Source: Paraburkholderia sabiae (GTDB taxonomy: Bacteria > Pseudomonadota > Gammaproteobacteria > Burkholderiales > Burkholderiaceae). Taken from it: 64,000 nt of DNA. The position numbers and the translations under genes are program-made. The notes below the pieces were generated by a model, which did not search any database, was not told the origin of the DNA, and was given only the letters and a program-made list of their open reading frames with translations. Of this stretch, positions 53,381-60,034 are shown one piece after another. How positions within the stretch are numbered: the stretch's first letter is position 1; every line of letters starts with the position of its first letter. The DNA is taken from positions 3,410,001 to 3,474,000 of the forward strand of contig NZ_CP125295.1 in NCBI RefSeq assembly GCF_030412785.1, in the 5' to 3' direction.

Positions 53381-54745
53381 TCACTCCACCGCAGGCGTCA
53401 ATTCCGCGTCTTCGATATGCGACGCCTGTGGACGGCGTGCCATCGCGAACACGCCGAATGCGGCGATCATCGCGGGCACGGCAAGCAGGCTGAATACCGC
53501 GCCGAACTGCCAGCCCAGCCCCATTAGCGCAGCACCGACCAGCGCGCCCGCCACGCCGCCGATGCGCCCCACGCCGAGCATCCACGCAACGCCCGTCGCA
53601 CGTCCTTGCGTCGGATAGAAGCTTGCAGCCAACGCGGACATCGATGTGACGGCTGACGTGACGACCGTGCCCGTCAGGAAGATCAGCGTGCCGAGCATCA
53701 GTTGATGTCCAATGCCGCGCCCGACCAGCATCACCAGCAAGGCCGCCACGACATACGTGCACGCGATCACGCGATTCGCCTTGAAGCGGTCCATCAGCCA
53801 GCCGACGCTCAGATTGCCGAGGATGCCGCCAAGGGGAAACAACGAAGTCATCAGCGCGGCGTTTTGCCCGGAAAAGCCAGTGTCCTTGAAGAGCGTGGGC
53901 AGCCAGTTCGTCAGCAGATAGTAGATCAACAGACCCATGAAATAGGCGAGCCACAACATCAGCGTGCCAAAGCGAAAGCGCGACGACAACACCACACGCA
54001 ATGCTGACCCGCGATGCTCCGCGACGGATTCCGCGGTCACGAAACGGCATGCTTCAAGAGACGCGCTCTTTGCGATGCGCTGCAAAACACGGGCGATCCG
54101 CGCGTCGCCGCGTTGTCTCGTCACCATGAATTGCGCGGACTCGGGCAGCAACAGAATCAGCACGAATGTCAGCGCAATTGGACCGACGCCGCCCGCAACG
54201 AGCACGCTCTGCCAGCCGAAGTGAGGAATGAGCCATGCCGACGCCACACCGCCGATCGCGAGTCCGCATGAGAAGCCGCAGAACATGGCGTTCACCGCTA
54301 CCGCACGGATGCGTGCCGGTGCGTATTCGGACATCAACGTCACCGCATTCGGCATCGCGGCGCCGAGTCCGAGGCCTGTCATGAAACGCAGTGCCGTTAG
54401 CGATTCGATGGAAGTCGCATGCGCAGCCGCAAAACTCCATAGCCCGAAGAAAAACACCGATAGAATCAGCACCGTTTTACGTCCGATTCGATCCGCAAAC
54501 GGTCCTGCACCCAATGCACCGATTCCGAGGCCAACAAGCGCCGCGCTCATCACAGGCCCGAGTGCGGACCGCGCCACGCCCCAGTCCTGCACGAGCGAAG
54601 GCGCGATGAAACCGACAGCAGCCGTATCGAAGCCATCGGCGGCGACGACCAGAAAGCAGAGAACAAGAATCGTCCATTGAAAAGGCGAAAAACGTTCGCC
54701 GTCGATGAAACGCTGCACATCGACTGTGCGTGTGTGCTGGCTCAT
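53381..54745 (-). CDS. MFS transporter, aromatic acid:H+ symporter (AAHS) family
   Basis: This 454-residue carrier has 12 helices. The AAHS start is FSPFQWTILVLCFLVVAADGFDTAAVGFIAPSL, here cited by its core ADGFDTAAVGFIAP, and the loop motif GPFADRIGRKTVLI and the family GLGLGAAMPNAVTLMSEYAP follow. Relatives (PcaK, BenK, MhpT) import 4-hydroxybenzoate and other ring acids. The ATG at 54745 follows a perfect AAGGAG. It is the last gene of the SDR-desaturase-NIPSNAP-MFS operon and presumably imports that pathway's substrate. Confidence 0.92.
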   Translation of the reverse strand: MSQHTRTVDVQRFIDGERFSPFQWTILVLCFLVVAADGFDTAAVGFIAPSLVQDWGVARSALGPVMSAALVGLGIGALGAGPFADRIGRKTVLILSVFFFGLWSFAAAHATSIESLTALRFMTGLGLGAAMPNAVTLMSEYAPARIRAVAVNAMFCGFSCGLAIGGVASAWLIPHFGWQSVLVAGGVGPIALTFVLILLLPESAQFMVTRQRGDARIARVLQRIAKSASLEACRFVTAESVAEHRGSALRVVLSSRFRFGTLMLWLAYFMGLLIYYLLTNWLPTLFKDTGFSGQNAALMTSLFPLGGILGNLSVGWLMDRFKANRVIACTYVVAALLVMLVGRGIGHQLMLGTLIFLTGTVVTSAVTSMSALAASFYPTQGRATGVAWMLGVGRIGGVAGALVGAALMGLGWQFGAVFSLLAVPAMIAAFGVFAMARRPQASHIEDAELTPAVE

Positions 54746-54818
54746 TGCGTGTCTCCTTGAAACGCGGGTGCTACGTCTCCGAATGTCTTTGATTGCGCTG
54801 CTGCCGTTTCTATTTTTT

Positions 54819-55157
54819 TTAGCGCAGCGCAGTGAGACTTCTGAATTCGACGCGCCGGATGATCCGGCTTTCCTGCGCAACGATCAGATGCGCCGACGCC
54901 TGCAAGTACGCGGGCCATTCCGGGTCCGCATCGCGCGCAGTGCGGCGCTGGTCGTAATCGCCGATGCTTTCGTAGCCCCACAAATGCACGACCTGATTCA
55001 ATGCGCCGATATCGCTCATATAGAAACCGACGGGCGCGCCGAGGTACTTCAATTGAATGGGCATCGCGAGACGATCGAATACGTCGATGAATTCCGCCAT
55101 GCCGCGCGGCCGGATCGTATAGATGCGGTGATCGACGAATGGTTTGGTGCTGCTCAT
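54819..55157 (-). CDS. NIPSNAP-family small protein
   Basis: The 112-residue product has the NIPSNAP dimeric alpha-beta barrel pattern: FVDHRIYTIRPRGMAEFIDVFDR, YMSDIGALNQVVHLWGYESIGD and a terminal RRVEFRSL-type strand. Bacterial members are small and functionally undefined, and some occur in aromatic or steroid catabolic clusters. It lies 11 bp after the desaturase gene. A cofactor or substrate-handling role is inference. Confidence 0.88.
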   Translation of the reverse strand: MSSTKPFVDHRIYTIRPRGMAEFIDVFDRLAMPIQLKYLGAPVGFYMSDIGALNQVVHLWGYESIGDYDQRRTARDADPEWPAYLQASAHLIVAQESRIIRRVEFRSLTALR

Positions 55158-55168
55158 GATGCTGTCCT

Positions 55169-57941: not shown

Positions 57942-58835
57942 ATGAGGAAAATCCCTAACTACGATCTGTATGGCGAATCCGCGCGCCCGCCCTGGTTCGA
58001 CGCGTTCAATTTCGAGTGGATTGCCGAGCGCAGCCGTCCCAACGACTGGCATATCGCCGCGCATCGACACGATGCGCTATTGCAGATTCTGTATATACGC
58101 AGCGGCAGCGGACACGTCGTGATCGAAAGTGAGAAGCACGCGTTCACGCCGCCCTGTGTCGTCGTTTTGCCCGCGCAAACCGTGCATGGCTTTGTGTTTT
58201 CGCCCGATATAGACGGGCTTGTGATCACGGCTGCGCAGCGTGCGCTGGAGTCGATTTCGAAGGCCGTGTCGCCGGGCCTGCTGCCTGTGATTCAGCGCCC
58301 GGGTGTGATCCCTGTGAAGACACCGGCGGGCGACGACACATTGATGCCGCTCTTCACGCTGCTCGAACAGGAATACCGCGGCAATGCACGCGGTCATATC
58401 GCAGCCGGGATGTCGTTGATGATTGCACTTTTCGTGCAAGTGGCGAGATTGAGCGATGCGGCGGCGATGACCGCATCGAGCGGCGTCGCCGATCGGCGCA
58501 GCGTGCAGATCAAGCGCTTTCGTGAACTCGTGGCCGGGCACTTTCGCGAGCACCGTCCCGTCGATTTCTATGCTGAGAAGCTAGGCATTACGACGGCTCA
58601 ATTGAGCCGCATTTGCCGCGACGAACTCGGCCATTCGCCGATGTCGCTCGTGAATGAACATCTGATACGCGAAGCACAGCGCGATCTCGTCTATTCGGGT
58701 CTGACGATCAAGCAGATCGCGCACGCATTGGGCTTCGAGGATGCCGCGTATTTCAGCCGCTATTTCCGCAAACAGACGGGCGCGACGCCCAAAGAATTTC
58801 AGGCCGCCGCGCACACCGATCTGTCTTTGAACTGA
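57942..58835 (+). CDS. AraC-family regulator, PobR/PobC-like
   Basis: The 297-residue protein has an N-terminal cupin-like sensor (HRHDALLQILYIRSGSGHVV, VLPAQTVHGFVFSPDIDGLV) and a C-terminal double helix-turn-helix (about 195-290; YAEKLGITTAQLSRICRDELG, LTIKQIAHALGFEDAAYFSRYFRKQTG, cited in parts). The sensor resembles PobR-type activators of 4-hydroxybenzoate hydroxylase genes. It converges on pobA with 26 bp between and diverges from the SDR operon, so it may control both. The ATG at 57942 follows CAGGAGACG. Its last codons lie within a tandem repeat. Confidence 0.88.
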   Translation: MRKIPNYDLYGESARPPWFDAFNFEWIAERSRPNDWHIAAHRHDALLQILYIRSGSGHVVIESEKHAFTPPCVVVLPAQTVHGFVFSPDIDGLVITAAQRALESISKAVSPGLLPVIQRPGVIPVKTPAGDDTLMPLFTLLEQEYRGNARGHIAAGMSLMIALFVQVARLSDAAAMTASSGVADRRSVQIKRFRELVAGHFREHRPVDFYAEKLGITTAQLSRICRDELGHSPMSLVNEHLIREAQRDLVYSGLTIKQIAHALGFEDAAYFSRYFRKQTGATPKEFQAAAHTDLSLN

Positions 58836-58851
58836 TTGTCTTTGAACTGAT
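58822..58851. repeat. Tandem duplication of 15 bp across the AraC stop
   Basis: The 15-base unit TGTCTTTGAACTGAT occurs twice in a row (58822-58836 and 58837-58851). The first copy contains the stop codon TGA at 58833-58835; the second copy is untranslated. It looks like a recent slippage duplication with no effect on the protein. Confidence 0.9.
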
Positions 58852-58861
58852 TACCTGCCGT

Positions 58862-60034
58862 TTAAACCGCCACCGCGCCGACATAGTTCTCGGCCATCGA
58901 AATCGCCGCGCTGCGCGAAGTCGTCACGTGCTCCAGTTCCGCGACCTGCAATTGCTGCTCGAATGGCGATGCATCGTCGAGGCGGTGCATCATGCGCGTC
59001 ATCCAGTACGAGAAATGTTCTGCGCGCCAGATGCGCTTGAGCGCCGTTTCGCTATAGCTTTCGAGCTTGTCGCTACGATCTTCCTTGTAGAACGCACGCA
59101 ATGCGTCGGACAGAATGCGCACGTCGGAAACAGCGAGGTTCAAGCCCTTCGCGCCCGTAGGCGGCACGATATGCGCTGCATCGCCGGCAAGGAACAGGCG
59201 GCCGTGCTGCATCGTCGTCGAAACGAAACTGCGCATGCCGACAATGTTCTTCTGAAAGATCTTACCTTCGACTACCTTGTGGCCTTCATCCGAATCGACG
59301 CGTGCGTGCAGCTCTGCCCAGATGCGATCGTCTGACCAGTTGTCGACGTTGTCCTTCGGATCGCACTGGAAATACATGCGCTGCACGTTCGGTGAACGCG
59401 TGCTGACCAATGCAAAGCCGCGCTCGTGACGCGCATAGATCAATTCGTCGGAACTGGGCGGCGCTTCGGCCAGAATGCCGAACCAGCCGAACGGATAAAC
59501 GCGCTGATAATCTCGGCGCAGTGCTTCCGGAATCGAATTGCGCGAAATGCCCTGCGAACCGTCGCAACCGATAATGAAATCGCATTGCAGGTCGTGCGCT
59601 TCGCCTTCGTGACGAAAGCGAATGGTCGGCGTCGTGCCGTCGATATCGTGCAGCGATACATCCGATACGCCGAAATGCAACGCGCCTTGCGCCGCCACGC
59701 GCGCAGCGACAAGATCCTTGATAACTTCGTGCTGCGCATAGACCGTGATCGCTTTGCCCGTGAGATCCGTGAGATCGATACGGCGGCGCTTGCCTTCGAA
59801 TGCGAGTTCGAAGCCATGATGCAGTGCACCTTCCGCTTTCATGCGCTCGCCCACACCCGTTTCGGTGAGCAGATCCATCGTGCCCTGTTCGAGCACGCCC
59901 GCGCGTATCGTCGATTCGATCTGCTCGCGGCTGCGCGATTCGAGCACGACGGAATCAATGCCTTGCAAATGGAGAAGATGGGAGAGAAGCAGTCCCGCAG
60001 GACCAGCGCCGATGATGCCGACTTGGGTACGCAT
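58862..60034 (-). CDS. pobA: 4-Hydroxybenzoate 3-monooxygenase
   Basis: This 390-residue flavoprotein hydroxylase has the N-terminal FAD motif [34 protein letters not shown], the second fold motif [14 protein letters not shown] and [22 protein letters not shown]. The ring-substrate-binding region is [21 protein letters not shown]. It converts 4-hydroxybenzoate to protocatechuate with NADPH and O2. Length and all motifs match PobA. It is transcribed toward the PobR-like gene, and 220 bp upstream (60035-60254) holds its promoter, with no other gene. No pca ring-cleavage genes are in this window. Confidence 0.96.

Follow-up and report, generated by a model that had tools for sequence, protein, structure and literature searches.

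The 64,000-nucleotide stretch of Paraburkholderia sabiae DNA analyzed here (the window, C1:3410001-3474000 of a 9.9-Mb source genome in four contigs) carries a six-gene island in which an operon for a short-chain dehydrogenase/reductase (SDR), a KstD-like FAD desaturase, a NIPSNAP protein, and a major facilitator superfamily (MFS) carrier lies divergent from an AraC-family regulator gene that converges on pobA. We read this island, with a probability of about 0.72, as the lower half of an aerobic cyclohexanecarboxylate (CHCA) aromatization pathway that starts with a cytochrome P450 and is divided between two loci under one operator. From the genes, their conserved residues, their co-occurrence across genomes, and the operator sequence, we infer the substrates and step order that follow. 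We propose that a P450 of the KU-64 type, encoded on another contig (C2), would act as the CHCA 4-hydroxylase of the first step, yielding 4-hydroxy-CHCA; the SDR would serve as 4-hydroxycyclohexanecarboxylate dehydrogenase, giving 4-oxo-CHCA; and the desaturase would remove hydrogen twice next to the ketone, introducing two double bonds to form a dienone and then 4-hydroxybenzoate, which PobA would convert to protocatechuate. The NIPSNAP protein might speed isomerization or enolization, or shield the reactive dienone, and AraC-type regulators would activate both loci through the shared operator.

A scan of the source genome for P450s found one, within a 977-codon frame on C2: a 930-aa fusion (C2:2140381-2143170), unlinked to the island, with the Pfam domains Fer2 (residues 10-84), FAD_binding_6 (109-201), NAD_binding_1 (211-314), FCD (353-476), and p450 (747-885). 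This is the [2Fe-2S]-FAD-FCD-P450 order given in the literature for the P450 starting CHCA degradation in Paraburkholderia terrae KU-64 (PMC9687028). A convergent HpaA-like AraC gene adjoins the fusion gene and is 88-94% identical in the other P450 loci fetched, one of which has it split in two frames; no SDR, desaturase, or NIPSNAP gene was found at the source-genome P450 locus. A P450 fusion on a plasmid of Paraburkholderia sp. FT54 (L213) bears in its annotation no name but BenC, the benzoate dioxygenase electron-transfer component, which hides its P450 half.

To relate fusion and desaturase, we sampled 144 genomes of the genus and typed desaturases by identity to the window protein (type A, at least 73%; type B, 63-69%). 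Desaturases at least 60% identical occur in 58 genomes (type A in 38 and type B in 23, counts that include one interrupted and one partial gene, in G013 and G136), and the fusion is matched in 33, among which G167 has only a diverged fusion in two pieces (75% and 59%) and G147 has its pieces on two contigs. Type A or B is present in all 33 P450-bearing genomes and in 25 of the 111 P450-less ones (Fisher p = 4.8e-17, uncorrected for kinship); of the P450 bearers, 22 carry B, three of them together with A, and the other 11 carry A alone. Among the 121 B-less genomes, A accompanies the P450 in 11/11 and is found in 24/110 without it (p = 3.3e-07, again uncorrected for kinship). The window desaturase is the only type A or B desaturase of the source genome. 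In five of five type B loci examined (L053-L057), P450 and module are neighbors in the order P450> <AraC SDR> KstD> NIPSNAP>; pobA lies near three of them, and the end of a pobA gene lies at the edge of a fourth, L054. In G141, which has only type A, pobA adjoins the P450 gene.

Island and P450 locus also share a putative operator, a direct repeat upstream of the SDR gene (Table 1). The same element stands in aligned P450 promoters (11 of the 30 P450 loci fetched) and in the type B SDR promoters of 5/5 loci, with ATGTCC replacing TTGTCC. A 35-bp pattern built from the SDR and P450 promoter sites, and so free of mismatches at those two by construction, occurs with up to three mismatches at three places in 9.9 Mb: the promoters of the island SDR and of the P450, and the region ahead of the AraC gene that is linked to the P450. 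The reversed control gave no hits. A pattern built from type A sites only, a less circular test, occurs with up to two mismatches at four places in the source genome; these include the P450 promoter, and two have no known link. The control for this pattern again gave none. When one mismatch is allowed, the window contains three copies of the bare repeat (0.5 expected), of which only the SDR site is exact. The operator-like site upstream of the P450-linked AraC gene (C2:2144136-2144170, 3 mismatches) is retained although the SDR, desaturase, and NIPSNAP genes that relatives have at this locus are missing.

To follow the operator and the module beyond the genus sample, we scanned contigs with nine desaturase orthologues; 482 stretches matched, 377 encode a relative, and the best 80 were kept, each reaching up to 10 kb on either side of the desaturase, some being short. 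Several gene calls at these loci were made by script and some names given by eye; LigA, LigB, PcaH, AroQ, and an RraA-like protein were profile-checked. An AraC-SDR intergenic region is covered in 67 of the 80 loci, and the operator is present in 43 of these 67, which are 43 of the 44 from Burkholderia, Paraburkholderia, Caballeronia, and Pararobbsia (the exception is L126); outside such regions, 1.62 Mb held five operator sites. The AraC-type regulators presumably bind this element.

The operator was not found in the pobA promoter; what stands there is another element, a palindrome whose TATCG/CGATA arms (TATCG-N7-CGATA) are kept with small changes in most of six aligned pobA promoters and which may be a different kind of control site. 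With copies at the SDR and P450 promoters and none at pobA, the operator would tie the island to the P450 and not to pobA. The sequence-only reading of this DNA had assigned SDR and desaturase to a 4-hydroxy to 4-oxo to 4-hydroxybenzoate segment, and this part gains support in silico from the KU-64-type P450 in the genome, the 33/33 co-occurrence, the sister linkage, and the common operator. Its proposal that one regulator governs both pobA and the operon is not supported, no operator being found at pobA, and its label "PobR-like" finds no backing: the regulator is of the AraC family, its nearest NCBIfam model is HpaA (TIGR02297; 153.9 bits, below the cut-off of 274.65), and nothing identifies it as PobR. 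That reading had also missed the P450, the unlinked regulon, and the wide spread of a module that mostly shows no pobA in the stretch examined.

An SDR more than 50% identical to the window protein lies within 2.5 kb of the desaturase in 69 of the 80 loci. AraC, SDR, and NIPSNAP genes together accompany the desaturase in 66, and 51 of those 66 also have the MFS carrier; where the carrier is missing, other genes resembling organic-acid uptake systems often follow (one binding protein of the LIV type was profile-checked). The module occurs in Paraburkholderia, Caballeronia, Burkholderia, Pseudomonas, Azotobacter, Thauera, Derxia, Azohydromonas, Polaromonas, and others, the nearest named loci in the desaturase scan being from Paraburkholderia. 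Among the nine loci whose desaturase reaches 73% identity to that of the window (the window itself and L045-L052), six keep the six-gene arrangement gene for gene; L051 and L052 keep AraC, SDR, desaturase, and NIPSNAP without carrier and pobA, and L050 retains only desaturase and carrier. This recurrence, in close relatives and in the 66 wider loci, argues that the arrangement is not due to chance. In L052 (G013), the type A desaturase frame is broken by one stop codon, which may reflect a decayed copy or an assembly error. At L054, the AraC and MFS genes are adjacent, which had suggested a cassette inserted between regulator and carrier; we dropped this idea on finding the AraC, SDR, desaturase, NIPSNAP, and MFS genes co-located in several families, and gene loss is the more likely history of L054. 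Nine loci (L109, L114, L117, L127, L133, L137, L138, L140, L141), mainly of Variovorax, Hydrogenophaga, and Xenophilus, have the desaturase, mostly with NIPSNAP, without AraC and SDR; by eye, the genes around it resemble those for GntR/FCD regulators, a thiolase with an OB-fold protein, an amidohydrolase, and at times Rieske-type proteins.

pobA is present in 23 of the 80 loci, and pobA and/or a protocatechuate dioxygenase gene in 27, from several families; no pobA was seen in the stretch examined for the other 57, and the AraC regulator accompanies the module in such loci too. The module thus often, but not always, has pobA as a neighbor. pobA is convergent with AraC in Paraburkholderia and Burkholderia and in line with it in Pseudomonas BN417 (L102); the PobA proteins of L053 and L102 clear TIGR02360 widely (683.9 and 712.7). 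Derxia lacustris has pcaH and pobA near the module (two contigs of one genome, L112 and L113), pcaH occurs at the module loci of Azotobacter beijerinckii and an Oxalobacteraceae metagenome-assembled genome, ligB at the Derxia gummosa locus, and ligAB at the Thauera locus (L110), where a LigI-like protein matched only a sulfomuconolactone hydrolase model, below its cut-off. On plasmid pPABY2 of Salipiger abyssi (L217), related desaturase, NIPSNAP, AraC, and SDR genes lie ~8-10 kb from annotated badI and acyl-CoA dehydrogenase genes. The badI annotation stands for 2-ketocyclohexanecarboxyl-CoA hydrolase of the cyclohexanecarboxyl-CoA route, and this neighborhood again points to cyclohexane acids, and two routes for such acids may share the plasmid.

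Among solved structures, the desaturase is closest to 3-ketosteroid dehydrogenases (7p18, 329.6 bits), and it scores 750.1 against PRK06134 (cut-off 747). The key residues of KstD1 are Tyr119, Tyr318, Tyr487, and Gly491 (PMC5348764), and Y125, Y374, Y545, and G549 of the window protein align with them, all four being kept (offsets hand-counted on the 4c3x alignment, assuming a 20-residue tag). Together with the FAD_binding_2 match, these residues bear out the earlier description of a KstD-like FAD desaturase with its catalytic tyrosine. By analogy with KstD1, Y545 and G549 would polarize the ketone, Y374 with Y125 would take the proton, and FAD would take the hydride (PMC5348764).

The NIPSNAP protein is the most conserved part of the island, with 89-97% identity wherever it was found among 17 Paraburkholderia-type loci (L063-L079), namely in 16. 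Median identities to the window across these loci are 93.8% for NIPSNAP (16 loci), 84.5% for PobA, 84.4% for the desaturase, 81.5% for AraC, 78.3% for the MFS carrier, and 76.0% for the SDR. In 76 of the 80 loci the NIPSNAP and desaturase genes are no more than 2 kb apart; in L070, L096, L109, and L128 NIPSNAP was missed near the desaturase. Its model is a compact single domain with a ferredoxin-like, barrel-type fold (pLDDT 93.4); a fold search returned first NIPSNAP proteins without a named function, then barrels of the YgiN, LsrG, SnoaB, and OAC type, and points on this modeled structure to no single function. Residues D9, R11, Y13, H58, W60, and E96 are invariant in 30 sequences and could line a proton-transfer site; we propose that the protein is a proton-transfer partner of the desaturase. 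In the parts of the literature that our search reached, we found no fitting report linking NIPSNAP with such operons. A stronger version, in which one KstD-like flavoenzyme and an obligate NIPSNAP isomerase or tautomerase carry out the whole aromatization of 4-oxocyclohexanecarboxylate, and in which the two-contig regulon under one AraC-type operator followed the loss of a P450-linked lower operon, is tentative, and we would give it somewhat short of even odds. If true, it would provide a catalytic role for a bacterial NIPSNAP protein.

PobA passes TIGR02360 barely (539.3 versus 538.7), with 7on9 as its best solved relative (1.3e-170). The substrate residues of this hydroxylase, which we take to be Tyr201, Ser212, Arg214, Tyr222, and Tyr385, are all kept in the alignment. 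The nearest NCBIfam models of the carrier are PcaK (525.6, cut-off 770) and TIGR00895 (AAHS; 396.7, cut-off 418.55), with both cut-offs above its scores, and we propose that it might import CHCA or acids of the 4-hydroxybenzoate type. The gene set and arrangement set out in the sequence-only reading are confirmed, with all reading frames in place, matching Pfam domains, and strands that make the regulator divergent from the operon and convergent on pobA. Table 1 collects the coordinates; an alternative SDR start, an in-frame ATG at 57808, is possible.

Table 1. Genes and putative control sites of the island, in window positions
Feature	Position	Strand	Remark
AAHS-like MFS carrier, 454 aa	53381..54745	-	MFS_1 7e-44 (Pfam)
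NIPSNAP family protein, 112 aa	54819..55157	-	PF07978 8.7e-28
KstD-like FAD desaturase, 589 aa	55169..56938	-	FAD_binding_2 7.7e-105
SDR dehydrogenase, 276 aa	56966..57796	-	adh_short_C2 3e-61
Putative operator TGTACGAATTGTCC-TGCGATGCGTGCTCT-TTGTCC	57891..57925	-	direct repeat TGTCC, 21-bp spacing, upstream of SDR
AraC-family regulator, 297 aa	57942..58835	+	HTH_18 7.1e-24; divergent from SDR operon
pobA, 4-hydroxybenzoate 3-monooxygenase, 390 aa	58862..60034	-	TIGR02360
Palindrome TATCG-CGTTGCT-CGATA upstream of pobA	60100..60116	-	single exact place in window

Several results weigh against a P450-first CHCA pathway as the function of the island. The desaturase scores 583.8 bits against the ChcC2 model (cut-off 900) and 355.9 against ChcC1 (cut-off 1000), and the SDR scores 181 against ChcB2 (cut-off 350); because these curated cut-offs lie above the scores, we do not assign the proteins to the three families. 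In the aerobic route as described, two desaturases act in succession (PMC9795900). The operator was not found in 24 of the 67 AraC-SDR intergenic regions, 23 of them outside the four genera named above, where its count is 0/23. No KU-64-type P450 is present in 24 of the 38 type A genomes, so that type A may serve other entry substrates. Finally, eight loci, from seven genomes, have next to the module one or more genes of a second cluster type (AroE-like, KstD-like, NIPSNAP, TIM barrel), which hint at hydroxylated hydroaromatics.

One alternative keeps the pathway and divides the desaturation: the window desaturase would perform one step and a second KstD-like protein, for example on C2, the other, as with ChcC1 and ChcC2 in Sinomonas. 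The window protein is indeed nearer ChcC2 than ChcC1, the source genome has two further full-length KstD-like genes on C2 (ChcC2 scores 517.8 and 419.3), and more than one KstD-like match (E <= 1e-20) is present in 12 of 15 P450-bearing genomes; but G023, G092, and G120 have a single match (the count covers 16 genomes, namely 15 of the 33 known P450 bearers and the P450-less G121, and drafts could hide others), and none of 59 relative genomes has a match above the ChcC1 cut-off. ChcC1 as a marker of a second desaturase was dropped, matches below the cut-off being present in 59/59 relatives and 14/14 control genomes, without discrimination. On balance we consider a division of labor rather unlikely, and a single desaturase may suffice where the route as described has two.

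A second alternative is that the true substrates of the module are different hydroaromatic acids, namely hydroxylated carboxylates of cyclohexane or cyclohexene that are related to quinate and shikimate, which feed protocatechuate or 4-hydroxybenzoate, with CHCA at most a side substrate. Besides the 24 P450-less type A genomes, it can call on the AroE-like/KstD/NIPSNAP/TIM-barrel cluster of the source genome (L043), on the adjoining of at least one gene of that cluster type to the module in L081, L104, L112/L113, L122, L134, L135, and L142, and on a dehydroquinase gene beside the lig genes of Thauera L110. The P450-less genomes and the adjoining AroE-like cluster genes suggest that type A may also serve other hydroaromatic acids. 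However, for the source genome both the common operator and the co-occurrence with the P450 favor CHCA, and within the operon itself we recognized no gene for a dehydroquinase, a dehydroshikimate dehydratase, or an AroE-like protein; as an account of the island, this alternative seems improbable to us. The L043 cluster itself (C2:62000-82000) comprises IclR, a TIM barrel (PF01261), a two-domain NIPSNAP, two KstD-like genes, an AroE-like gene, an SDR, a Gfo/Idh gene, and a LIV-type transporter; considered as a CHCA cluster, it was dropped, no P450 being recognized there, and it seems to be a hydroaromatic cluster of another kind. An operon for a desaturase of steroids, of terpenoids, or of some unrelated type, placed beside pobA by accident, which the 3-ketosteroid dehydrogenases among the best solved relatives and the different context of the Variovorax/Hydrogenophaga relatives might suggest, is very improbable against the aromatic-acid-like carrier, the recurrent protocatechuate and 4-hydroxybenzoate neighbors, and the sister module linked to a KU-64-type P450.

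The P450-first CHCA reading would have several consequences if right. A widespread and generically annotated proteobacterial operon would be assigned a function, and a single enzyme would cover a conversion for which the route as described needs two. For NIPSNAP proteins, whose solved relatives listed by the fold search are without functional names, a role open to direct test would emerge. From the operator, we would expect the regulon to be compact. CHCA is a model for naphthenic acids, toxic compounds from hydrocarbon deposits (PMC5906575, PMC9795900).

With respect to 4-hydroxybenzoate catabolism of the pca/pob type, the island lies next to pobA and its product would enter protocatechuate, whereas the pobA promoter is without the operator and 57 of the 80 module copies showed no pobA nearby. 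To KstD (4c3x, 7p18) the desaturase is related in sequence and in all four key active-site residues, yet its genomic context is that of aromatic acids, not steroids. The nearest systems in function are the chc aromatization pathway of Sinomonas cyclohexanicum, reportedly described by Yamamoto in 2021, and the self-sufficient KU-64-type P450 of Paraburkholderia terrae, reportedly described by Yamamoto in 2022. The latter, compared through the description of the KU-64 protein, has the same domain order as the source-genome fusion. Orthologues of this fusion stand beside the sister module, whereas in the source genome the gene lies on a contig apart from the SDR/desaturase/NIPSNAP operon. With the Sinomonas pathway, compared through its description and the NCBIfam Chc models, the proposed route would share P450 4-hydroxylation, dehydrogenation to the 4-oxo acid, and KstD-like desaturation to 4-hydroxybenzoate (PMC9795900); the island differs in having probably one desaturase instead of two, no protein above the Chc model cut-offs, an unlinked P450, and an AraC-type operator, and possibly in its NIPSNAP partner. 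We regard the island as a variant of a known cyclohexane-acid degradation pathway and not as a new type of system, probably distinguished by its single desaturase, its NIPSNAP pairing, and its division over two contigs under one operator.

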